Shown here one piece after another: positions 16,118 through 37,536 of a stretch of DNA of 64,000 nt (position 1 is the first letter of the stretch; the number at the start of each line of letters is the position of its first letter). Source of the DNA: Chloroflexaceae bacterium (GTDB lineage Bacteria; Chloroflexota; Chloroflexia; Chloroflexales; Chloroflexaceae); NCBI GenBank assembly GCA_028282325.1, contig JANQID010000052.1:62001-126000 (forward strand), written 5' to 3'. The notes under the pieces are model-generated. The model worked only from the letters and a program-made list of their open reading frames with translations, was not told the origin of the DNA and searched no databases. The translations under genes and the position numbers were made by a program.

Positions 16118-16151
16118 CGCCGTGTGCATCAGCCGGCTGATGCGCACGGCG
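16118..16151. terminator. Stem-loop after secA
   Basis: Two 17-bp arms with one G:T mismatch (CGCCGTGTGCATCAGCC / GGCTGATGCGCACGGCG). On the minus strand it is followed by TTTTTT at 16104-16110. On the plus strand there is no T-run, so termination of secA is likely but less certain. Confidence 0.5.
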
Positions 16152-16208: not shown

Positions 16209-17042
16209 ATGGAACTACATATAGCATGTCTCATTCAGGCTTGCCAAGATATCGGGCTCGAGTATCAATTTCTGGATCGTGAGCATAATTTTGTTCGCAT
16301 CTGGATCAACAACGATCCTCTTTATTTTCAACTCAACAAAACGCCATTCAACTCGGCAGTTATGGCAAGCATCTGCATAGACAAAGAGCATACATACAGG
16401 CTGTTTCAAGATGCTATTCGTATGCCCAAAACCATTGGTTTCCTCGATTACAACACAGTCTCCCGATACCAAAAATATCTTACCTTCACATCTCTGGGAG
16501 CCATAACAACAGAAATCGAAAAGGAGCTTGCGTACCCGGTTATTGTCAAAAAGAACAAAGGCGGACTCGGCGTCAATGTGTTTATGTGCCAGAATAGAGC
16601 TGAAGCGCACCAGGCATTAAACGTCATCTTTGACAGGAATTCTTCTGATTACGATTATGTAGCGCTCGTTCAGGAATACCTGCCATTTGCGAAAGAATTC
16701 AGGCTGGTGTGTTTTCGCGGCGAAGCGATGCTGGCGTATGAACGCATATCTGGAAGCGCAGCATTCAACGCACGATACTGGGAATCTGAGCATAGCAGCA
16801 CGAGACACATAACAGACCAGAACATTATTGATGATCTGGTCGAATTTGTTTGCCCTGCTATGGGCATTAAAGGTCTGGAATTTATTGGCTTTGACATCGT
16901 ACTGGCAAAAGATGGAAACTATTATTTGTTAGAACTCAATTCCGGCCCTAGATTCGATCATTTCATACAATGCAACGGAACGGAAGCAGTGGTGGAAATG
17001 TACAGAAGGATCTTGAATAACGTTGGTGATGAAGTCAGATAG
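16209..17042 (+). CDS. ATP-grasp ligase (RimK/cyanophycin-synthetase-like)
   Basis: A 277-residue ATP-grasp protein. Visible motifs are YPVIVKKNKGGLGVNVFM near 113-130 (ATP-binding Lys and glycine loop), VQEYLPFAKEFRLVCFRGE near 157-175, and the metal site GFDIVLAKDGNYYLLELNSG near 226-245, where Glu and Asn of LELNS should bind Mg. ATP-grasp enzymes form amide bonds through an acyl-phosphate. The last coding bases overlap the next gene, a FolC-like Mur ligase, so the two are translationally coupled. Cyanophycin synthetase joins the same two enzyme classes in one chain. The ATG at 16209 is preferred to a TTG at 16188; neither has a strong ribosome site. The gene is more A/T-rich by eye than secA. 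Substrate unknown. Confidence 0.8.
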   Translation: MELHIACLIQACQDIGLEYQFLDREHNFVRIWINNDPLYFQLNKTPFNSAVMASICIDKEHTYRLFQDAIRMPKTIGFLDYNTVSRYQKYLTFTSLGAITTEIEKELAYPVIVKKNKGGLGVNVFMCQNRAEAHQALNVIFDRNSSDYDYVALVQEYLPFAKEFRLVCFRGEAMLAYERISGSAAFNARYWESEHSSTRHITDQNIIDDLVEFVCPAMGIKGLEFIGFDIVLAKDGNYYLLELNSGPRFDHFIQCNGTEAVVEMYRRILNNVGDEVR

Positions 17043-18384
17043 AAACAACGCTCGCATCTCAGAACTGCTGAATCTGCCAAAATTCGGCTATGGCATTGGT
17101 CTGCACCGAATGAGCTGGATTTGTTCTGACATCTTGCACACACCATGGATGGCAAATCTTGATGCGATAAAGATTACCGGTTCCAACGGCAAAGGCAGCG
17201 TATGTGCGATGAGCGCCGCTATATGCGAGGCGCTGGGCATTCGTTATGGTTTATATACCTCGCCGCACATCCTGCAATTCAATGAAAGAATTGTTGTCAA
17301 CGGTCACGCTATTAGCGATGCAGAGCTTGTAGAAGCGATACAGTGGTTTGTCTCTCAGAAAGACGATTACCTTAGCCTCTACCCTAAGGACATTATCGGC
17401 GCTTTTGAAGCATTCACTTCGGTAGCGTTATATCATTTTTATAAAATTCAACCGCAACTGGTCATTGCTGAGGCAGGTATCGGCGGGCGTTTTGATTCGA
17501 CCAGGATTATTCCAGGACGTTTTGTTGGTTTGACCTCCGTCGATCTGGAGCATACCAAATTATTAGGCGACACGTTAGAACACATTGCGTATGACAAAGC
17601 GGATATGTGCCCGGACTGCGGGACGCTGATCGTCGGAAAGGTTGACAACGAGATCCTCAGAAGGCTCAAATCTTATGCTTCGTTGCGCAATATACGCCTG
17701 ATCAGCGTCCAGGATCTCTGTCACATTGAAAACGTCGCCTTGGAACGTTCGGGGATGCGTGTTGACGTCACTGTAGACGATCTGTCGTTCAAAGATCTCT
17801 ATATAGCGCTGCAAGGACGTCACCAAATCAGCAATGCCGCGACTGCAATGATGTTGGTCTATGAATGGTCGCGAAAACATCTTCCACAACTCTCAAAGAG
17901 TCAATTTATGGAAGGCGTTCACAATGGTTTGGCATCGGTCGTCTGGCCAGGCCGTTTTCAGAAAATTTCCGTTAGTCCCGATGTGTTTATCGATGTTGGA
18001 CACACGCCTGATGCGATTGACAGCTTGATTGCCACCGTCAGGGCTGTAAATAACGGCCAACCCGTCGTTCTCGTTACCGGCGTTTCCTACGACAAAGAAG
18101 CCGAGTTGATAGTGTCAAAACTCACGGCCATCGCCGATGCTGTGATTTGTACCAGGGCATATCACAAGGGTCGATCGGTTAAGGAAATCAGCGCTATTGC
18201 CAAACGACAACGCCCTCGGCTGCCCATATTTGAAGCGGCGACAATCGAGGAGGCGGTTCACCTTGCCAAACAGTATGCAACAGATCATAGCATGGCCGTC
18301 GTTATTGCTGGAGGCCTATTTCTGGCTATCGAAGCTAAGGAAGCGCTAAACGGCAACGATCCTCAGAATTTGCAGTTTTTCTAG
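17029..18384 (+). CDS. FolC-like Mur ligase family protein
   Basis: A 451-residue ATP-dependent amino-acid ligase related to folylpolyglutamate synthase. The P-loop is ITGSNGKGSVCAM near 47, followed by the FolC-type string GLYTSPHILQFNERI near 75. LGDTLEHIAYDKADM near 180 contains the Lys expected to be carbamylated. The C-terminal domain has WPGRFQK near 305 and DVGHTPDAID near 322, where FolC has DGAHN. It overlaps the ATP-grasp gene by 14 bp from the ATG at 17029; TTG 17023 and GTG 17026 are alternative starts. A true FolC is possible. The overlap with an ATP-grasp partner and the changed C-terminal motif make an unknown conjugation product more likely. Confidence 0.78.
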   Translation: MKSDRNNARISELLNLPKFGYGIGLHRMSWICSDILHTPWMANLDAIKITGSNGKGSVCAMSAAICEALGIRYGLYTSPHILQFNERIVVNGHAISDAELVEAIQWFVSQKDDYLSLYPKDIIGAFEAFTSVALYHFYKIQPQLVIAEAGIGGRFDSTRIIPGRFVGLTSVDLEHTKLLGDTLEHIAYDKADMCPDCGTLIVGKVDNEILRRLKSYASLRNIRLISVQDLCHIENVALERSGMRVDVTVDDLSFKDLYIALQGRHQISNAATAMMLVYEWSRKHLPQLSKSQFMEGVHNGLASVVWPGRFQKISVSPDVFIDVGHTPDAIDSLIATVRAVNNGQPVVLVTGVSYDKEAELIVSKLTAIADAVICTRAYHKGRSVKEISAIAKRQRPRLPIFEAATIEEAVHLAKQYATDHSMAVVIAGGLFLAIEAKEALNGNDPQNLQFF

Positions 18385-19491: not shown

Positions 19492-19538
19492 TATAGCAAT
19501 CCTACCGCAATCTTTACGACTGCGGTAGGATTGCTATA
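19492..19538. repeat. Perfect 18-bp inverted repeat
   Basis: TATAGCAATCCTACCGCA and its exact complement are separated by an 11-nt loop. There is no T-run beyond the arm. It lies in the gap between the methyltransferase and the small membrane protein and is unrelated in sequence to the other repeats here. Confidence 0.75.
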
Positions 19539-19931: not shown

Positions 19932-20065
19932 TTGTATTTCTACCTGACAATACTTGCTTCCACAGCTTGACGAAGTGCGATCACCGTTGTATCTTCAATC
20001 TGTGCATAGCTCACGTTCCCGCAGCCAGTCCCCTGTAACCATAGCCTGAATTGCCAGAGGTTATT

Positions 20066-21052
20066 ATGCGTACCAAAGACGAGTGGAAACAGATTCTCGA
20101 AGAGACTCTACCGCCGAAGGAAGAGCACGTTGCGCGTAATCGTGCGATCACTGCTTACTATGCAAAATGGTATTTACAGAAGCCTGACCTGCTCAAGTGG
20201 GCTGGGATGGCGTCGTTTGCTTCGTTCCAGGTGGGCGTCGGGCTTGCACTAGCCGCGATGCTTGCAGCGCCGGATATGATGATTACGACCGCACAGCCGG
20301 ACAAGGAAGAAAATATTCTGGATCTGGCGCTCAAGCTCCCCGGTCTGGCACTCAATGTATTCTTCAGCATTCCGGTCGCGCTTCACGACGCCGCCACGCG
20401 CGAGTTGCTGCGCAACGATCTGGATCTAATCAAGCTGGGTAATGACGAAATTTTTAACGACATTGGATGGGCGCATTTGGCATATATCGAGGAAGGACTC
20501 GACGCTATCAAAGCCAATGCGTCGGAGCATGAACGCGAGTATATGTTACGCGGCTTTCAGATAATTGACGAAGGCGCGAAAATGCTTGACGATCCGGAGA
20601 AACGCGCAGCAGGAGAAAAGCAGATCTTCGAAGGCAACATTTCCTTGCTTCGGCAAGAACAACTGCAAACGCTACCGCCCATTTTCGCGCGCGTGACGAT
20701 GCTGGGCCGCGTTTTCTCCTCTGTAGGCAGTATGCTTGACTTTGCCAGCGCCGGTTTCGGCAGCGGGGGACGTGTATCCTCGTTCAGCTTCCACTTCGGC
20801 AACCTGACGGTGATCGCTGGTATGCGGAGTATTACCAACGCCGAGGATCGGTGGGAATGGATCGAGCAAGATATGCTGCCTGCATGGAAACAGGTGGAGG
20901 CGTCATTCGCTGAGGGATCAGGGCTGCACCGTCGGCTGGTTGCGATGGCCAACCAGGAACCGGCGCCGCTGCATCAGGTTGCCGATCTGATGAATACGCT
21001 ATATCCAGTATTAGGTATGAAGGCCAATCCGTTTGCGCCTGTGAGGGCATAA
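20066..21052 (+). CDS. Unrecognised protein with hydrophobic segments
   Basis: A 328-residue protein I cannot assign to a family. The N-terminus is charged and probably helical (MRTKDEWKQILEETLPPKEEH). One hydrophobic stretch (FASFQVGVGLALAAMLA) lies near residues 53-70 and a second (LALNVFFSIPVAL) near 94-107. The rest is acidic-helical, with a Gly/Ser-rich turn (SAGFGSGGRVSSFS) near 232-245 and several Trp residues near the C-terminus. The ATG at 20066 follows AGAGG; a TTG at 20051 overlaps that site. It stands alone between a terminator and a convergent methyltransferase. It could be a peripheral membrane or enzyme-like protein. Confidence 0.7.
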   Translation: MRTKDEWKQILEETLPPKEEHVARNRAITAYYAKWYLQKPDLLKWAGMASFASFQVGVGLALAAMLAAPDMMITTAQPDKEENILDLALKLPGLALNVFFSIPVALHDAATRELLRNDLDLIKLGNDEIFNDIGWAHLAYIEEGLDAIKANASEHEREYMLRGFQIIDEGAKMLDDPEKRAAGEKQIFEGNISLLRQEQLQTLPPIFARVTMLGRVFSSVGSMLDFASAGFGSGGRVSSFSFHFGNLTVIAGMRSITNAEDRWEWIEQDMLPAWKQVEASFAEGSGLHRRLVAMANQEPAPLHQVADLMNTLYPVLGMKANPFAPVRA

Positions 21053-29030: not shown

Positions 29031-29586
29031 TGTACTGTCGCCCTTACAGCTTTTCTGCGCCTGATACGCTAGAGTAAATTGTGTGGCAGGATGTTTCTGG
29101 CCAAGACCCGCACTATCGTAGTCGAACCCTCTACTATGCCATCTACATAAAATTTGTTGCAATATGATCGTAATTGCCGACGCGAATCGTTTAGCCATGT
29201 CGAAAGCAACCAGGTAGCGCTCACGTCGTTTATCGGCGGTAATCTCATCTGAGAATCTATAATGAAGCTCTCAAACTCCCTCTTAAGACTGGCTAACTAT
29301 CTGGTCCAGATGTAGATGATAGGTTTGCTTGCTCTGTAAGTTGAAGGTTGCTCTATGGGTAATGGTTTTATTTATACTAAGGTAAGAGCAATGTACTACG
29401 AAAAAGTCATTTGAGCAGATCGAAGGCGGATAGCATTTACTTCTTGCTATCTTCAAGCGAACGAGTGAACTAATGTTAATGTAGTTACTAGACACATGAA
29501 AGCGTTTGTCATTGTATCTTGCTACGCTCTTTATGGTGGGTATCGGTCGGAATCGCACACTGACAAAGTGCAGAAGAGGTTCAGCT
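29031..29586. other. Gap with no supported gene
   Basis: About 550 bp of A/T-rich sequence before the sugar transferase. I found no convincing coding frame, hairpin or repeat copy. Open frames here lack ribosome sites and recognisable motifs. It may hold the promoter of the exopolysaccharide genes. Confidence 0.4.
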
Positions 29587-30363
29587 ATGGCGGCAACAAG
29601 CATTGAACATAATCAGCGCGATGAGCAATCTTCCGCAGATCAAGGAACGCTTGATGAGAAGACTTTGCAAATGATTGAGATATTCGCCGAACGTCGTTTC
29701 CAAAGCTTCCAGGCGAACCAGCGCATCCGCTTTCATTTGACGATTTGGATCATTCGCACCAAGATTATCCAGAACTTGAAGCGAGCGCTTGATATACTCA
29801 TAGCCTCTGGTGCAATCGTTGCTTCTTCTCCAATTATGGGGATAACCGCAGTTGCGATCAAGCTTAACTCCCCTGGCCCTGTGATATTTCGCCAGACCAG
29901 AGTCGGCAAATGGGGATCAACCTTCCAATGCTATAAGTTTCGTTCTATGTATACTGATGCAGAGCAACGGTTGAAAGGACTTATGGCGCATAATGAAGCC
30001 GACGGCCCAGTGTTCAAAATGAAGCACGATCCACGTATTACCCGCGTGGGAAGGATCATTCGCAAGCTGAGCATCGATGAGTTACCGCAACTCTTCAACG
30101 TGTTGAAGGGTGAGATGAGTCTGGTGGGACCACGTCCGGCGCTGCCCCACGAGGTCGCAACGTACAGCTTTGATGAACGCCAACGCCTCAACGCTATCCC
30201 TGGCATCACTGGATTGCAGCAAGTTTCCGGGCGAAGCGATATAGACTTTAAACGCTGGGTTGAGCTTGATGTGCAATACATCTCAGAGCAGAGTCTGTGG
30301 AAGGATATTGAGATCCTTTTCAAGACTATTCCCGCAGTCTTGTTTAGCAAAGGCGCATATTGA
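29587..30363 (+). CDS. Undecaprenyl-phosphate sugar-1-phosphate transferase (short PGT type)
   Basis: A 258-residue bacterial sugar transferase (monotopic phosphoglycosyl transferase), which puts the first sugar-phosphate on the lipid carrier. LKRALDILIASGAIVASSPI near 63-82 is the membrane-entering helix. FRQTRVGKWGSTFQCYKFRSM follows near 101-121. The catalytic Asp-Glu pair is in LSIDELPQLFNVLKGEMSLV near 162-181, followed by GPRPALP, and GLQQVSGR lies near 207. It lacks the four-helix N-terminal half of WcaJ/WbaP. The ATG at 29587 has AGAGG upstream; an earlier GTG/TTG-type extension lacks support. It heads the exopolysaccharide/partner-switch block. Confidence 0.9.
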   Translation: MAATSIEHNQRDEQSSADQGTLDEKTLQMIEIFAERRFQSFQANQRIRFHLTIWIIRTKIIQNLKRALDILIASGAIVASSPIMGITAVAIKLNSPGPVIFRQTRVGKWGSTFQCYKFRSMYTDAEQRLKGLMAHNEADGPVFKMKHDPRITRVGRIIRKLSIDELPQLFNVLKGEMSLVGPRPALPHEVATYSFDERQRLNAIPGITGLQQVSGRSDIDFKRWVELDVQYISEQSLWKDIEILFKTIPAVLFSKGAY

Positions 30364-30462
30364 ACCGGTCTCCAGGATCGATGTGAGCTAATCCATAAGC
30401 TGTTATCGTTCCAATTGTATTGGCAGCAGGGTAACGGCATGTTTTGAGGAGGGATAGCGCAT

Positions 30463-31920
30463 ATGCGAAAGCTGCTCATTGTTCTGGGCGTTCCCATCGA
30501 TGATCTGATTATAGACGAGGCTCTTAACCGCATCGAGAGCTTCATTGCCGTGGGTCGCGCTACAAAGAAATGTCATCAAATTGCAACCATTAATGCAGAC
30601 TTTGTTGTAAACTCACTCTATGATCCTGATCTTCGCCGAATTCTTCAGCAGGCGGATATGGCAACAGCTGATGGCATGCCGCTGGTATGGGGAGCAAGAT
30701 TGCTAGGGGTTCATCTCGAAGATCGCGTTACTGGCGCGGATCTTGTGCCGGCGTTGGCTGAACGTTCCGCCCAAAAGGGATTTTCAATTTATCTGTTGGG
30801 AGCGAAGCCAGGAGTCGCCGCTCGGGCAGCCGAAGTGTTACGTGATCGCTACCCGGGAGTCAATATCGTCGGTGTCGTATCTCCGCCATATGGGCCGATC
30901 CGTGAAATGGATCGCTCTATAATTAACGACATTAAAGCGGCTCGCCCGGACATTCTAATGGTTGCGCTTGGCAACCCGAAACAAGAAAAATGGATTGATA
31001 TGTACGCGCCGGAATTAAACGTTCCGGTATGCCTTGGCATTGGCGGTACGCTTGATTTTATTGCCGGCGTGACAAAGCGTGCGCCTGTATGGATGCAGAG
31101 GAGCGGCGTAGAGTGGATATATCGGCTGATGCAAGAACCACGGCGCCTCTGGAAACGCTACGTCCAAGATCTATTCTACTTTAGCTCATTTTTTGTTCGG
31201 CAGTGGTGGTCGATGCGTCAGGGATATCAAACAACGACATTGATTCCTTCATCCGATGCAGTGATGATGATCGATCAAACCGCTATTATGAATATCCAGG
31301 GACGGTTGGATGTTCGAAACTATGCGACGTTTATGGCCAGAGCAGAACAAGCGCTCGCTCTGAGTCCTTTCATCATTGTGAATCTTGCCAACACAGCATT
31401 TCTGGATAGTTCGGCGATGGGGGCGCTAGTTACCCTGGCCAATCGGGCACGAGGAAATGGGGGCGATCTCTGGCTGGTGAATGTACCGAAACACATCGCG
31501 GATATTCTGTCGATTATCAAGCTCGATCAATTCTTCGATATGCTGGATGATGTGGAGTCTGCGCTCCAGATCCGGCGGACAAGAGAAACTCTAGCAGCGC
31601 CAAAAGAAAGCGATACTGATGAATGGCAGGTGGTGAAGGCTCCGCGCATCGTTGATGGATCGCTTGAAACGGTGGTGATAAACAACCATATTCCTGATCC
31701 ACTGACGGATGCGCGTTTAATCATTGACTTGAGTGATACCATTATTATGTCGCAAGATGGCATTAATTCGCTGCTTCGGCTTGATCAGAAAATGCGTGTT
31801 AACAAGGGTCAATTGCGCATTGCGGGTTGCTCTGGAGATGTTTTACAGAGTTTTCAATCTATGCACCTCGATACTGTTCTAACAATCTGCCAAGATGTGG
31901 AAACCGCAGCTACATCATAA
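30463..31920 (+). CDS. WecG/TagA/CpsF glycosyltransferase fused to two STAS domains
   Basis: A 485-residue fusion. Residues 1-245 are a WecG/TagA-type glycosyltransferase: TINADFVVNSLYDPDLRRIL near 43, the catalytic-Asp string ATADGMPLVWGARL near 66, and ALGNPKQEKWID near 168. Residues about 268-365 form a STAS (anti-anti-sigma) domain, with a conserved core and FLDSSAMGALVTL at the usual phospho-Ser site. Residues about 385-483 form a second, more diverged STAS-like domain, with IMSQDGINSLLRL at the same place. There Asp replaces the phospho-Ser. The start ATG follows GAGGAGGG. Downstream genes encode the matching STAS, phosphatase and kinase, so the transferase itself may be a target of partner switching. 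Confidence 0.85.
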   Translation: MRKLLIVLGVPIDDLIIDEALNRIESFIAVGRATKKCHQIATINADFVVNSLYDPDLRRILQQADMATADGMPLVWGARLLGVHLEDRVTGADLVPALAERSAQKGFSIYLLGAKPGVAARAAEVLRDRYPGVNIVGVVSPPYGPIREMDRSIINDIKAARPDILMVALGNPKQEKWIDMYAPELNVPVCLGIGGTLDFIAGVTKRAPVWMQRSGVEWIYRLMQEPRRLWKRYVQDLFYFSSFFVRQWWSMRQGYQTTTLIPSSDAVMMIDQTAIMNIQGRLDVRNYATFMARAEQALALSPFIIVNLANTAFLDSSAMGALVTLANRARGNGGDLWLVNVPKHIADILSIIKLDQFFDMLDDVESALQIRRTRETLAAPKESDTDEWQVVKAPRIVDGSLETVVINNHIPDPLTDARLIIDLSDTIIMSQDGINSLLRLDQKMRVNKGQLRIAGCSGDVLQSFQSMHLDTVLTICQDVETAATS

Positions 31921-31934
31921 GGATATATGAAGCG

Positions 31935-33653
31935 ATGCAAGTTTTATTGCTGGCAACTGGTGAAAATGAGCATCTGGCCCCGCTTACTACAAAACGACCG
32001 TCTCCTATGGTGGCGGTTGTTGATCGTCCAGTTATGGCCATTGCTATAGAAAACTTGGTTCGTGCGGGCATTAAACGGGTTCTGGTCAGCCTCTACAATC
32101 AAGGCAGCAGTGTTGTATCATATTTTGGGGATGGTCGACGTTGGGGAATAAAAATTGAATATTTGCCTCAGAACCAGTTGTGGGGATCGGCAGGCATACT
32201 CAAATGGATTGCCCGACGTTTGCAGGAGTCAGTACTGGTGTTGCCTGCAGATGCCATCATTGATCTCGACGCGAGTATGGCAATGAAAGCGCACCATGCC
32301 GGCGGCAGCGGTATGACGTTGGTTCTCCATCAACCACAACACAAACACGAGGAACGGCTGGTCAACCTGGATGCACACAATAAGATCTGCGCTATTGGCG
32401 AGGAGACATCAACCGATACAACACTTGCCAACTTTACGGGAGCATTTATTTTTGATCCCGGCATGCTTGAATACATTCCGGCGAATACCGAATATAATGT
32501 TTATGAGGATCTCTTGCCACAGTTGCTCAGTTCGGGCGTAGAAGTTACTGGTTATATGATGCCAGGGTACTGGAACGCACTCAGTACTTTCAATGACTAC
32601 CAGTCTGCGCAAGTAACATATTTGCGGAACGCACGGGCGCAGAGCGATAATTCAGACGAGCAAGCGAGCGATATAAAACTCCTGCGCTACACATTAATGA
32701 ATCAGGCGCGTCAGATCGCTCCTGGCGTATGGGTCGGTGCAAATAGCTATATTCATCCTGATGCTCGGATTGCATCTCCGATCTATATTGGCAGCAATTG
32801 CTCAATTGGAGGCAATGTAGAATTAGGCCCAGAAGCTGTTATTGGATCAGGAGTTATCATTGACAGCGGAGCGACCGTCCAGTACAGTACAATTTTGGAA
32901 CATACGTACGTTGGCCAGTTTGTAAACGTTGACTCCCGGATAGTGGAACAAACAATGATCATTGATCCTGCCACTTCCAGCACAACCAATACTGTCGATC
33001 CGTTTCTCCTTTCAGAGACGACACGCACTGAAACAACTCGTCAAGCGTGGCTTTCCGTACTAGTAGCTGCGTTTCTTTTGTTCCTGTCGCTTCCGTTAAC
33101 CATACCAATCAGCTTACTGCTTTTTGTTGCGGCGCGCGGTCAAGTATTTAGTCGTACTCCCCATATCCATAGCCGACGAATTGGTCAGCCACCTTCCGCA
33201 ACACATACTAATCCGGAATCCTTTGATTTGTTGCGCTTTTCAACCCAGCGTCGTGATGGTTCCCTGAGTCGGCTAGGAAGCTGGCTGTGTAAGCGGGAGA
33301 TTGATCGAATACCAACGCTTTGGAATGTCGTTCGCGGGGATATCGGTTTAGTAGGAGTCAAGCCGCTCACACTAGAAGAAGCTGCTAATCTGACGGACGA
33401 TTGGCAGTTGCGTCGTTATACGTGTCCCGCTGGTTTTACGGGTCTTTGGTATACACAGGCTGATGCCGATAGCAATCTGGAGACCATCCTGATCACGGAC
33501 GCTTATTACGCAGCGACCCGAAGTTGGTTAGAGGACTTACGCATTTTGATCCGAACGCCTATGGTATGGCTCCGACGTACACGTTCTTCCCAGGCATCTG
33601 ACCATCAGCTTTCGTCATCCAAGGAACAGGTTGATGAAGTACATATAGCATAG
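31935..33653 (+). CDS. Nucleotidyltransferase-like / beta-helix / sugar transferase fusion
   Basis: A 572-residue three-part protein. Residues 1-235 resemble a sugar-nucleotide pyrophosphorylase, but the GGxGxRLxPLT loop reads ATGENEHLAPLT, without the catalytic Arg. Residues about 260-350 are hexapeptide repeats (IGSNCSIGGNVELGPEAVIG) forming a left-handed beta-helix, as in GlmU-type proteins. A membrane helix (WLSVLVAAFLLFLSLPLTIP) follows near 376, then a PGT-like domain. In that domain DELPQLxNVLxGxxSLVGPRP appears as DRIPTLWNVVRGDIGLVG, so the catalytic Glu is missing. Both enzyme halves look altered, which suggests a binding or scaffold role. The start is the ATG at 31935, 14 bp after the previous stop. 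Confidence 0.75.
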   Translation: MQVLLLATGENEHLAPLTTKRPSPMVAVVDRPVMAIAIENLVRAGIKRVLVSLYNQGSSVVSYFGDGRRWGIKIEYLPQNQLWGSAGILKWIARRLQESVLVLPADAIIDLDASMAMKAHHAGGSGMTLVLHQPQHKHEERLVNLDAHNKICAIGEETSTDTTLANFTGAFIFDPGMLEYIPANTEYNVYEDLLPQLLSSGVEVTGYMMPGYWNALSTFNDYQSAQVTYLRNARAQSDNSDEQASDIKLLRYTLMNQARQIAPGVWVGANSYIHPDARIASPIYIGSNCSIGGNVELGPEAVIGSGVIIDSGATVQYSTILEHTYVGQFVNVDSRIVEQTMIIDPATSSTTNTVDPFLLSETTRTETTRQAWLSVLVAAFLLFLSLPLTIPISLLLFVAARGQVFSRTPHIHSRRIGQPPSATHTNPESFDLLRFSTQRRDGSLSRLGSWLCKREIDRIPTLWNVVRGDIGLVGVKPLTLEEAANLTDDWQLRRYTCPAGFTGLWYTQADADSNLETILITDAYYAATRSWLEDLRILIRTPMVWLRRTRSSQASDHQLSSSKEQVDEVHIA

Positions 33654-33692
33654 GTCGTTCGTTAAGATGTGGATCTAAGGAGTAATAGATTT

Positions 33693-34031
33693 ATGGATCT
33701 GACAATCCGTTCGGAAGGTAACGTGACCATCCTTGAGATTTCTGGCCGGTTTGACAACCGTACCGCGCCAGCGGTCGCCGAAGAGTTGGAAAAAGTGACT
33801 CGGACTGAACCAGCGCGGCTTGTCGTGAATATGACAAACGTTTCATTTGTTGACTCCACGGCGCTGGCAACGTTGGTACAGGGACTCAAACGCTGCCGAC
33901 AACGTCGGGGTGAGCTCTATCTGTGTGGTTTGCAAAATCAGGTCTACATGATTTTTGAGTTGACTCGCCTTGACAAGGCTTTCACTATCTTTCCCGATGA
34001 GGCAAACGCTCTGCAGGCATTTGAGAACTAA
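33693..34031 (+). CDS. STAS-domain anti-sigma factor antagonist (SpoIIAA/RsbV-like)
   Basis: A 112-residue stand-alone STAS protein: MDLTIRSEGNVTILEISGRF, VNMTNVSFVDSTALATLV near 48-65, and GELYLCGLQNQVYMIFELTRL. The phosphorylation site of this family (second Ser in DSS) is Thr here (DST). In partner switching, the unphosphorylated form binds the RsbW-type kinase and the phosphatase restores it. The AAGGAG site lies 9 bp before the ATG at 33693. The next gene begins 6 bp after its stop. Confidence 0.9.
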   Translation: MDLTIRSEGNVTILEISGRFDNRTAPAVAEELEKVTRTEPARLVVNMTNVSFVDSTALATLVQGLKRCRQRRGELYLCGLQNQVYMIFELTRLDKAFTIFPDEANALQAFEN

Positions 34032-34037
34032 GCGACA

Positions 34038-35576
34038 ATGGCTGATATCCTTTCAATGCTCGTGAACTCCCAGCATGATCGATTCGATGATATTGCCGAG
34101 TCGTGGCTTGCGATGGGAGCTACGTCATTCAGTATCTGGGAAAATAATCAGATGTTGGCGCATTGGCCCCAACATCATCAGATTCAACCTGGTGAGCTAG
34201 TTGCCCCCATTGTCGCTGGCGATGCAATCCTCGGCGAACTGCATGTGACGGGTCTGGCAGATCCGGCTTCGGTTATGCGACTCAAAGCCGAAGCGGGTAT
34301 AATTTCATATGTGAGCCAGTTAGAATATGATCTGGATATGATGACGTCCGAGTTAGTTCAGCATCAAGATCAACTACTGGCTATCTATAAGCTTACTCGC
34401 TCGATGCATAGCCAGATGACTATCGATGCTATGCTGAACTTCTCCTTACTTGAGGCGCTTCGTATGATCGGAGCGCAGAGCGGGTTTGCCGCGATTGTGC
34501 CGACCAATCAGGAAGCGCTGCTGGTGCAATATCCTGAAGGTATTCTTGACGAGGCAGCGCTCTGGCGCTACTTCTGGCAAATGCATACTCGTGATCGAGA
34601 ATTTGTCTTGATTTCGATGCATGAGCAAGACAAACTGTTGCTTCCGCCAGGCGTTTCCAACGTTTTGTTTATCCCAATCAATATTCGGAATACAGTCGCA
34701 GCGGGAGTAGGATTCCTGAACAAGCCGGAGGAAGATTTCAGCGCCCCCGACATCAAATTAGCGCGTGCTATCGCATCACAGGTGAGTGCTCAAATCGAAA
34801 TGTTCCTCCTTTATCATGAAACATTTGAGCAGGCTAAGCTGCAATCTGAAATGGATCTCGCGCGTCGCGTCCAACTCAATCTATTGCCGCAGCATTTGCC
34901 AATGGTGACTGGTCTCGATCTCTATGCCACCACACGCCCGGCTTTCAAAGTGGGCGGAGATTTCTATGATGTCATCGCCAACGAGCAACGTCCGTTCTTC
35001 TTTTCGGTCGGCGATATCACAGGCAAAGGTCTCTCAGCGGCCCTGCTTATGACGATGGCTCTTTCGGCAATTCGTGCAAAAGCGAGCTTTATGCCCAACC
35101 CAACGCCTGAAACGATTATGCGGCAGTCAAATGAAGACCTGTACAATAACTTCACGCAGTTGGGGGTTTTCGCTACGGTGTTTATTGGTCAGTACCTTCC
35201 TGAACAACAGCAAATGGTTTTCGCGAATGCTGGTCATTCGCCTGTCATCTACAGGCCGTACAATACACACGCACGTTTACTCAAGGCTGCTAGTACGGCC
35301 ATTGGAATATTACCGGATATCTTCTGTACGAACGAGAATATTGTGTTTCGTCCTGGGGATATATTGGTGGTCGCAACAGATGGATTCAGCGAGGCGTGCA
35401 ACCAACAAGAAAGCATGTTCGGCTATGATCGGATGCTTGACCTCATCGATGAGAAAGCAGACCGGTCAGCACAAGAGATCGCAGAGGCGTTGTTTTCAGC
35501 TGTAGAGCAGTTTCGCGAGAACCACCCCCAGGAAGATGATCAGACATTGATTGTACTCAAAGGAGTGGCAGCGTGA
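34038..35576 (+). CDS. RsbU-like PP2C phosphatase with GAF-type sensor
   Basis: A 512-residue SpoIIE-type serine phosphatase. Residues about 125-265 form a GAF-like sensor (LLEALRMIGAQSGFAAIVP). A coiled linker (EQAKLQSEMDLARRVQLNLL) leads to the catalytic domain, near 290-510. Its metal-binding Asp motifs are FKVGGDFYDV, VGDITGKGLSAALLM, VVATDGFSEA and EDDQTLIVLKG. It should dephosphorylate the STAS proteins or domains. The next gene starts in the GTGA overlap at its stop, so the phosphatase and kinase are translationally coupled. The signal sensed by the GAF region is unknown. Confidence 0.9.
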   Translation: MADILSMLVNSQHDRFDDIAESWLAMGATSFSIWENNQMLAHWPQHHQIQPGELVAPIVAGDAILGELHVTGLADPASVMRLKAEAGIISYVSQLEYDLDMMTSELVQHQDQLLAIYKLTRSMHSQMTIDAMLNFSLLEALRMIGAQSGFAAIVPTNQEALLVQYPEGILDEAALWRYFWQMHTRDREFVLISMHEQDKLLLPPGVSNVLFIPINIRNTVAAGVGFLNKPEEDFSAPDIKLARAIASQVSAQIEMFLLYHETFEQAKLQSEMDLARRVQLNLLPQHLPMVTGLDLYATTRPAFKVGGDFYDVIANEQRPFFFSVGDITGKGLSAALLMTMALSAIRAKASFMPNPTPETIMRQSNEDLYNNFTQLGVFATVFIGQYLPEQQQMVFANAGHSPVIYRPYNTHARLLKAASTAIGILPDIFCTNENIVFRPGDILVVATDGFSEACNQQESMFGYDRMLDLIDEKADRSAQEIAEALFSAVEQFRENHPQEDDQTLIVLKGVAA

Positions 35577-36001
35577 AACAACGCCAATCGGACATCATAC
35601 GGCTAGAATTGCCGGCAACGTACACGTATTTACCGCTGTTGAGCGCATGTATTGCCGAAATGATCGAGCAAATTGACTCGGTCAACGATCGAAACGTTGT
35701 AGCATATAACATTCAGCTGTCAGCTCACGAAGTGTGCGCGAATATCGTCGATCACGCCTATGAACATCAGGATGGCAAGTTCTTCGAGGTCACGCTTACA
35801 TTGTCGTTTGAAGCACGCAGTCTGGTAATTGAGATGCACGATACGGGGGACGCATTTAATCTTGCCAGTGTACCGAAGCCTGATCTGGATGAAGTTCATG
35901 AGCATGGGTATGGGTTGTTTCTTGTTCACAGTTTGATGGATGAGGTTGTCTATCAATCACAACCGGATGGGAACCACTGGCGTCTGGTTAAGTATCTATA
36001 A
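35573..36001 (+). CDS. RsbW-like anti-sigma/serine kinase (HATPase_c_2)
   Basis: A 142-residue GHKL ATPase of the RsbW/SpoIIAB type. The N-box is HEVCANIVDHAYEHQ near 50-64, the G1 box DTGDAFNLAS near 88 and the G2 box EHGYGLFLVHSL near 108. It should phosphorylate STAS partners. The GTG start overlaps the phosphatase stop by 4 bp (GTGA). No sigma factor gene lies nearby, so the target is probably not a sigma factor. The fused STAS domains of the glycosyltransferase are the nearest candidates. Confidence 0.88.
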   Translation: MKQRQSDIIRLELPATYTYLPLLSACIAEMIEQIDSVNDRNVVAYNIQLSAHEVCANIVDHAYEHQDGKFFEVTLTLSFEARSLVIEMHDTGDAFNLASVPKPDLDEVHEHGYGLFLVHSLMDEVVYQSQPDGNHWRLVKYL

Positions 36002-36021
36002 GACACCAAGGATACACTATT

Positions 36022-36453
36022 ATGGCAACGATACTTATCGTCGATGACTATTCGCCTATTCAACGTTTGATGAGCTTTATTCTCCGGCAGGAGCATTACG
36101 AGGTCATAATTGCCTCAAACGGTCAGCAGGCGCTTGAAAAAATGTTTACAACGCCAGTAGATCTCATCATTACGGACTGGTGTATGCCAAATATGGATGG
36201 CTATACATTGTTGAAACATATACGAACTGACGGTCGATTGAGTCATATACCGATTATTATTCTGACAGCGAGCGGTGACGATCGTGACCGCCGGCGTGCA
36301 TGCGAAGCTGGCGCAAGTCATTTTCTTACCAAGCCGGTCGAGTCTGAGGAAATCCTGCATATTGTAAACCAGTTGTTGATACAACGCCATAATGATGTAA
36401 AAGAGGAAAGTGTCGTTCGTCAACCATCTCTTGCATATATGCCTGCCGCGTAA
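36022..36453 (+). CDS. CheY-like response regulator (single receiver domain)
   Basis: A 143-residue receiver domain with no output domain. The acidic pair is ILIVDDYSP near 7, the phospho-Asp is in LIITDWCMPNMDGY near 50, Thr is in IIILTASGDD near 78 and Lys is in HFLTKPVESE near 103. A short hydrophilic tail follows. No histidine kinase is encoded here. It closes the partner-switch operon, 20 bp after the kinase, and may pass a phosphorelay signal to the phosphatase or to polysaccharide enzymes. Its exact role is not visible. Confidence 0.88.
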   Translation: MATILIVDDYSPIQRLMSFILRQEHYEVIIASNGQQALEKMFTTPVDLIITDWCMPNMDGYTLLKHIRTDGRLSHIPIIILTASGDDRDRRRACEAGASHFLTKPVESEEILHIVNQLLIQRHNDVKEESVVRQPSLAYMPAA

Positions 36454-36602
36454 GAAGGAGGGCTGATTCCAGTCCAGAGATGACGCACGATCCTGGCATT
36501 TGTGATGTTTTGGAGTATCGCTGAGATAATCTGCAATATGTGCTGAGTGATACCTATCACAAAACCTTTCCCCACATATCACCATATTGTATACGAACAG
36601 AG

Positions 36603-36622
36603 GCCGCTGTATCATCAGCGGC
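36603..36622 (+). terminator. Possible terminator after the response regulator
   Basis: Arms GCCGCTG / CAGCGGC (7 bp, 6-nt loop) in the 300-bp gap before rfbF. The following sequence is not T-rich, so this is weak. I see nothing else in that gap. Confidence 0.4.
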
Positions 36623-36753
36623 ACTATGTTTGCCCCGAAGCATATATAACTGAATATCTATTTCCAATGAAGCTGAATTTGTCTGTTGATTACTGCCTAT
36701 TCTTGGGCGTTCCGTGTGTTGCCTGACGAATATTGAAAGGACAAGAAAGTGGT

Positions 36754-37536
36754 ATGAAAGCTGTTATTCTCGCAGGAGGGCATGGTACGCGGATCAGTGA
36801 AGAGAGCAACATTCGTCCGAAGCCGATGGTAGAGATTGGCGGCAAACCCATTCTCTGGCATATCATGAAGATTTACTCGGCGCATGGAATTAATGATTTC
36901 GTCGTTTGCTGCGGCTACAAAGCCTATGTTATCAAGGAATATTTCTCGAATTATTTCTTGCATACCGCTGATGTGACCTTCGATATGCGTTATAACTCTA
37001 TGCAAGTTCATCATGCTAGCACAGATCCCTGGAAGGTGACTCTAGTTGATACAGGCGAGAATACGATGACGGGCGGTCGCCTGAAGCGAGTCAAGGAATA
37101 CCTCAGTAACGAGACGTTCTGTATGACCTATGGCGATGGCGTTAGCGATGTGGATATTACTCGGCAGCTTGAATATCATCGCGAGCAGGGAGTCTTGGCA
37201 ACTTTAACCGCTGTTCAGCCGCCAGGGCGTTTTGGCGCATTTGTGTTGGGTGAGGATCAGGCTCGTATCTCTTCCTTCAAAGAAAAGCCTCAGGGAGACG
37301 GCGAAGGCGCCTGGATCAATGGCGGTTTCTTTGTTCTTGAACCTCAAGTGCTTGATTATATCGAAGGCGATACTACGGTGTGGGAGCGTGAGCCATTAGA
37401 GCAACTCGCACACAATGACCAACTCACGGCATATCGGCACACCGGATTCTGGCAACCAATGGATACCCTACGCGACAAGAATTTTCTGGAGGGATTGTGG
37501 CAGCAAGGCAATCCTCCCTGGAAGGTTTGGGAATAG
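36754..37536 (+). CDS. rfbF: Glucose-1-phosphate cytidylyltransferase
   Basis: A 260-residue nucleotidyltransferase that makes CDP-glucose from CTP and glucose-1-phosphate. [19 protein letters not shown] is the nucleotide loop. [20 protein letters not shown] near 21-40 and [11 protein letters not shown] near 126 (metal Asp) are typical of RfbF, as is [17 protein letters not shown]. The expected next enzyme, CDP-glucose 4,6-dehydratase (RfbG), may be the SDR at 37619 or may lie elsewhere. The ATG at 36754 fits the conserved N-terminus; GAAAGGACA is a moderate ribosome site. Confidence 0.9.

Follow-up and report, generated by a model that had tools for sequence, protein, structure and literature searches.

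The gene pair

Two ligase genes follow one another downstream of secA in the window, the term used here for the whole 64,000-nucleotide stretch of Chloroflexaceae bacterium DNA that was analyzed. The first encodes an ATP-grasp ligase, P0001, and the second a FolC-like Mur ligase, P0002 (Table 1). Both frames were located where a preliminary description of this DNA had placed them, and they overlap as it had indicated. Two further in-frame starts are available to P0002, GTG 17026 and TTG 17023; initiation at the latter yields a protein of 453 aa, whose numbering is employed for P0002 residues throughout, and extends the overlap to 20 nt. The arrangement is consistent with translational coupling of the two genes, as judged from the reading frames.

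The pair had also been described as richer in A/T than secA, and base composition bears this out: the GC content is 43.4% for the P0001 ORF and 48.5% for that of P0002, against 56.3% for the upstream secA and 54.7% for the window. The P0001 ORF has the lowest GC content among the 39 long, non-overlapping ORFs compared in the window.

Table 1. Coordinates of the gene pair and of other features in the window.
Feature	Position	Strand	Details
Inverted repeat	16118-16151		17 nt, 94% complementary, no spacer, no T-run; between secA and the ATP-grasp gene
ATP-grasp ligase gene (product P0001)	16209..17042	+	ATG 16209 to TAG 17042, 277 aa
P0001/P0002 frame overlap	17029..17042	+	14 nt, read from the sequence
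FolC-like Mur ligase gene (product P0002)	17029..18384	+	ATG 17029 to TAG 18384, 451 aa
Inverted repeat	19492-19538		21 nt (95%), 5-nt loop; in the gap of ~800 bases from a methyltransferase gene to the DUF2515 gene
DUF2515 gene	20051-21049		PF10720, 1.4e-55; family of unknown function
Second A/T-rich block	29506-37533		GC about 0.48-0.50

The ATP-grasp ligase

P0001 matches the RimK family of Pfam (6.7e-14), and the metal-site string LELNSG reported for it is indeed present, as LLELNSGP. The protein keeps K114, R165, D229, E242, and N244, which do not vary across alignments of 11 and of 18 relatives, and which we take to be its ATP and metal residues. The best structural match of its AlphaFold model (pLDDT 82.8) is LysX/ArgX (Z 19.8, 237 residues, rmsd 3.3), with the ATP-grasp domain of CphA1 (Z 18.5, 249 residues, rmsd 3.3), D-Ala-D-Ala ligase (Z 17.9), and RimK (Z 17.8) close behind; given that these matches are nearly tied, what the model names is a fold, of the RimK/LysX/CphA type, and not a substrate. 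The fold and metal site that P0001 shares with LysX/ArgX and RimK make the use of an amino acid plausible. The protein remains under the cut-offs of four profile models: 46.9 versus 143.4 bits for RimK, 39.4 versus 275.6 for LysX, 38.2 versus 300 for CofF, and 19.4 versus 350 for MptN.

P0001 falls within a standalone ATP-grasp family, defined here, to whose members it is mostly 31-39% identical over nearly the full length, with the invariant residues kept. By its sequence it is a divergent member: the GNLSPLHW stretch conserved in the family is absent, the alignment reading NAR----YW at this place, and A233 is found where 50 of 50 family rows have D. Relatives within the Chloroflexota (31-35% identity) occur in Chloroflexi bacterium AL-N1 and in Herpetosiphon, and the family is also found in Albibeggiatoa and in cyanobacteria, where it is carried by 12 of 234 genomes in a draw across the phylum and by 39 of 252 in a draw at the level of the order. 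The best tree of ATP-grasp proteins places P0001 near proteins of Chloroflexota, Okeania, and Hormoscilla (92/92), and not with those of two cyanobacterial genomes, G825 and G859, that are central to what follows. The highest identities of P0001 are, however, to the latter two proteins (39-43%, one of them over a fragment of 129 residues), and a rare arginine is common to P0001 and the G825 protein; constraining the three to group together costs 2.66 log units, and this grouping is not rejected (p-AU 0.386). Scans for close relatives of P0001 gave no match in viral contigs, genome contigs, or plasmids, and PHROGs returned a weak match to a RimK-like family.

Two loci of this family display features of their own. 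In genome G764 (L208), two P0001-type copies are neighbors, the second being devoid of both GNLSPLHW and the E/N metal motif. In the Herpetosiphon loci (L032-L035), a DinB-type gene comes after the ATP-grasp gene, and in no fewer than three of the four a HAD-type gene comes next.

The FolC-like ligase

P0002 carries Pfam matches to Mur_ligase_C (1.6e-14) and Mur_ligase_M (7.9e-9), and passes the NCBIfam subfamily model for folC, TIGR01499 (276.7 bits, cut-off 162.65), while lying below the folC equivalog cut-offs NF008101 (132.9 versus 360) and NF047860 (162.4 versus 700). The top 17 structural matches of its model (pLDDT 74.9) are all FolC/FPGS enzymes, with Z scores of 32.9-37.1, and the FolC fold extends over the whole chain. 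P0002 thus resembles known enzymes of this group (PDB 2vor, 1jbv, 1w78) in its full-length fold (Z 37), its P-loop, its TSPH string, and its E/H/K residues. The motifs singled out in the preliminary description were recovered in part: YTSPH and DVGHT are present, but the P-loop reads GSNGKGS, and that of FolC is usually GT(N/K)GKGS. P0002 keeps GKGS, E150, H177, K192, R311, D324, and H327, all of them unchanged or almost unchanged across 18 aligned FolCs, the E/H/K residues being presumably those that hold the metal and the carbamate. Since its catalytic residues are kept, P0002 would be expected to be an active ATP-dependent ligase.

P0002 differs from FolC/FPGS in that identity to 17 aligned FolCs reaches only 24-30%, in its changed DGAHN, GSL, DATN, and EKAGI motifs, and in its position in a separate clade. 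It is, in addition, a second copy. Another FolC, on contig C78 of the same genome, scores higher with the folC model (336.3 versus 276.7 bits) and is 29% identical to P0002, which is not the genome's ordinary FolC. Tandem FolC matches, two in number, were seen in a relative, G013 (C34:24414-26953). P0002 matches a PHROGs family of unknown function, phrog_16655 (1.8e-67), a match that is not taken as a sign of viral origin; a pattern search of viral contigs gave no match, phage and plasmid records hold distant FolCs alone (best about 31%), and defence models gave no match.

The coexistence of an ATP-grasp and a Mur-type ligase brings to mind cyanophycin synthetase, CphA1 (TIGR02068), which combines the same two enzyme types, and the preliminary description had drawn this parallel. 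A split system of this kind, building a polymer of two amino acids, could draw on the CphA1 match of the P0001 model described above, and on a cyanobacterial genome, G502, where a different FolC-like gene precedes two ATP-grasp genes, one of them cyanophycin synthetase-like (1.9e-47). The Mur half of CphA1 is not known to be FolC-like. CphA1 is, moreover, a single chain that includes an N-domain; here the two proteins are separate and no CphA N-domain is present, the P0002 model matches FolC at Z 37.1 and cyanophycin synthetase, which ranks after FolC/FPGS, at Z 25.0, and P0002 reaches 30.6 bits with TIGR02068, far under the cut-off of 850. The absence of cyanophycinase and peptidoglycan genes nearby, also noted in that description, holds for the 14 neighboring proteins scanned. 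A split synthetase is most improbable. The profile comparison that had been proposed with CphA, CapB/PgsB, and MptN, to which CofF was added, likewise left neither protein of the pair above a cut-off (P0002 scores 18.9 bits with PgsB/CapB TIGR04012, cut-off 222.7).

A distinct FolC-derived clade

In a tree of 35 rows, P0002 and its orthologs from G825 (47% identity over 442 residues, gapless) and G859 (48%) form a clade with 100/100 support that stands outside the 27 ordinary FolC rows; the stem of this clade measures 1.55 in a tree that is unrooted and includes long branches. The concern that the Mur ligase might sit inside true FolC is thus answered in the negative. Two other groups of FolC-like proteins appear in the tree: one represented by a neighbor of an ATP-grasp gene in cyanobacterial genome G606 (F2-type), which is a weak sister of the P0002-type clade (88/72, long branches), and a third, 'C-type' clade from G502 and G859. 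P0002 and the G606 FolC were considered as orthologs and rejected as such, with 28% identity and placement in different clades. The notion that the 'C-type' proteins are certainly non-folate enzymes was also dropped, since in Albibeggiatoa no FolC match other than their sister L069 was found; no ATP-grasp gene lies in the fetched flank of L069.

The altered DVGHT string, previously noted in P0002 alone, proved to be part of a signature common to the three members of the clade, in which DGAHN becomes D[VL]GH[TS], GSL becomes GGL, and DATN becomes DSTR. N328 is replaced by T, S, and S, and S431 by G, at positions where ordinary FolCs have N and S in 27 of 27 rows each, and whose equivalents are fixed in 44 of 44 FolC rows of a wider set. 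The GA of DGAHN is altered as well (26 of 27 ordinary rows keep each residue), and all three proteins show N161 to R (N in 25 of 27), P165 to G (P in 26), G194 to D or E (G in 26), and K197 to P (K in 25). The pterin-side loop that holds the DATN change also has G in place of T/S, and the EKAGI motif is changed too. In Lactobacillus casei FPGS, the counterparts of S431 and of the DGAHN histidine are placed at the glutamate site; in E. coli FolC, those of the T-x-FE and DATN loops belong to the pterin site. That the substrate of P0002 has changed is a sound inference from these sequence differences, although not a demonstration. Few ligand data exist for FPGS, whose glutamate site has been modeled by overlay (PMC10861534).

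These substitutions bear on a scheme in which P0002 is a specialized folyl- or pterin-polyglutamate ligase and P0001 adds a different amino acid to cap or lengthen the tail, in the way that CofF acts on F420 and MptN on methanopterin. The folC score of P0002 agrees with such a role, as do its retained TSPH..NERI and FE..T motifs and H/K/E catalytic residues, and P0001 does match CofF, MptN, and RimK, if weakly; but its scores of 19-47 bits lie far under cut-offs of 143-350, fixed or nearly fixed FolC sites are changed in the pterin-side loop, GSL, and DGAHN, and no folate gene was found among the 14 neighboring proteins scanned. Modification of a folate tail is distinctly unlikely.

Recurrence beside ATP-grasp genes

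The flanks of P0001-type ATP-grasp genes were collected from 45 loci in 44 cyanobacterial genomes, mostly with 5-6 kb per side and less at contig ends. A FolC-like gene lies within them in three of the 44 carriers (G606, G859, and G825), which speaks against the pair being found only here by chance. If each genome of 6.3 Mb has two FolC copies, approximately 0.17 such cases would be expected by chance (P(>=3) = 7e-4), a rough figure given that the loci were not chosen blind and that carriers and FolC rows stem from the same searches.

The arrangements vary. In G606, the FolC-like gene begins 4 nt after the ATP-grasp gene on the same strand and is a second copy (255.3 bits), an ordinary FolC being found elsewhere (358.5 bits). 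In G859 (L231:6721-10027), one strand carries in succession a FolC-like gene, another ATP-grasp gene, and the P0001-type gene, and the ortholog of P0002 is on a different contig. On the 4.5-kb contig of G825, the end of a FolC-like gene is followed by an unrelated ORF, the P0002 ortholog, and an acetyltransferase gene; next comes the C-terminal part of the ATP-grasp gene, on the opposite strand (convergent) and separated from the P0002 ortholog by one gene. The set in G502 (L223:5396-8754) involves ATP-grasp genes of other types; its second gene includes one in-frame stop, and the last ATP-grasp also matches N-acetylglutaminylglutamine synthetase models. All four neighborhoods resemble the pair in having a FolC-like ligase beside at least one ATP-grasp ligase, but they differ from it in gene order and orientation, and their FolC partners are spread over three clades.

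P0002-type genes were detected at E <= 1e-45 in two of 256 genomes drawn around G825 (G825 itself and G859). Both carry the ATP-grasp, a coincidence that independent genes would show with a probability of 0.024, taking 39 of 252 from the overlapping order draw. Only two draws, that of the order and the one around G825, recovered these orthologs; at 1e-47, none was present in the 244 genomes that represented cyanobacteria in the draw across the phylum. No FolC was found in the fetched flanks of the remaining 41 of 44 cyanobacterial carriers, nor in those of the Herpetosiphon, Chloroflexi AL-N1, and Albibeggiatoa loci. The ATP-grasp ligase therefore needs no FolC partner, and the FolC-like/ATP-grasp pair is not a fixed unit.

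P0002 could be an ordinary second FolC, with, for example, dihydrofolate synthesis and tail extension divided between two copies, and the ATP-grasp gene an unrelated neighbor. The many carriers without FolC nearby are what this would predict, several other Chloroflexales genomes hold two FolC matches, and a precedent exists in Lactobacillus reuteri, whose two FolC genes, folC2 and folC, are reported to have distinct roles (PMC5061717). Such a reading does not account for the overlapping frames, the conserved clade signature, or the recurrence beside the same ATP-grasp family in another phylum, and P0002 has no near relative at 1e-70 in 399 other Chloroflexota genomes; we consider it unlikely.

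Origin of the pair

The genes were probably acquired by transfer, as the preliminary description had suggested, and both base composition and relatives fit this view. Transfer is favored by the composition, by the fact that the nearest orthologs are in cyanobacteria and have 41% GC, and by the absence of P0002 from 399 other Chloroflexota genomes at 1e-70; the best P0002 match in another genome was 1.2e-42, in a set of 61 that included its own genome. Of the groups sampled, cyanobacteria would be the most likely source. Congruence between the P0001 and P0002 trees is not plain, and with the p-AU value given above co-transfer is neither shown nor excluded. Nine stretches on the downstream side of secA were read in relatives, one of them just 294 bases long, and none contains the pair or its downstream neighbors, so synteny is not conserved. 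Foreign genes may also be decaying ones that serve no present function, as the composition unlike that of the host and the A233 substitution of P0001 might indicate. Both frames are nonetheless intact and overlapping, with catalytic residues kept in both proteins, and decay is highly unlikely.

A putative amide-ligase cassette

Enzymes of both superfamilies employ ATP to convert a carboxylate into an acyl phosphate and then into an amide. We infer that P0001 and P0002 act in one pathway, as well as the order of steps and the chemistry that follow. Each enzyme would activate a carboxylate as an acyl phosphate, which is then joined to an amine. P0002 would most likely attach an amino acid to an acceptor bound in its altered pterin/folate pocket, probably without following the folate enzymes in their use of glutamate; P0001 could then attach a second unit to the product of P0002, or prepare the unit being added. 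The product would probably be a small soluble conjugate rather than a protein tag or a long polymer.

In this scheme the two proteins constitute a two-enzyme, NRPS-independent cassette acting on a small molecule, to which we assign an even chance of being correct. It is favored by the overlapping frames, by the two folds with catalytic residues kept, by the second, higher-scoring FolC elsewhere in the genome, by a conserved P0002-type clade altered at sites fixed in ordinary FolC, and by the three cyanobacterial genomes in which FolC-like genes lie beside members of this ATP-grasp family; that similar pairs occur in a few cyanobacteria suggests that the two enzymes probably cooperate on a small amide-linked compound. 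Against it stand the P0002 ortholog of G859, which lies away from the ATP-grasp gene, the majority of carriers without FolC nearby, partners drawn from three FolC clades with a weak grouping of P0002-type and F2-type proteins, and P0001 itself, which lacks GNLSPLHW and does not join the G825 and G859 proteins in the best tree. The adjacency count, in addition, was not blind, and one shared transfer island could co-locate unrelated genes.

More tentatively, P0002 and its cyanobacterial orthologs might represent a distinct class of FolC-derived amide ligases whose acceptor and amino acid are both new, and which, with ATP-grasp partners, make undescribed amide-linked small molecules through cassettes exchanged between cyanobacteria and Chloroflexota. 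What stands is that the pairing is real and recurring and involves a distinct FolC-derived clade, its function being putative. No paper on a FolC-like/ATP-grasp pair was found in an open-access library, which is weak evidence of novelty. Genome pipelines will label P0002 a folate enzyme, since it passes the folC model, and a clade that does so while altered at fixed sites marks annotations to be distrusted. The pair also offers a compact, readily expressed two-gene system for direct tests of new ligase chemistry.

Other features of the window

Searches for tRNA and Rfam families gave no match in the window. The inverted repeat upstream of the ATP-grasp gene may separate the transcription units of secA and the pair; a second one precedes the DUF2515 gene (Table 1). 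The second A/T-rich block encodes sugar transferases, a WecG-type glycosyltransferase-STAS fusion, a STAS protein, a SpoIIE phosphatase, a HATPase, and a response regulator, and looks like a region for exopolysaccharide synthesis under partner-switch control.
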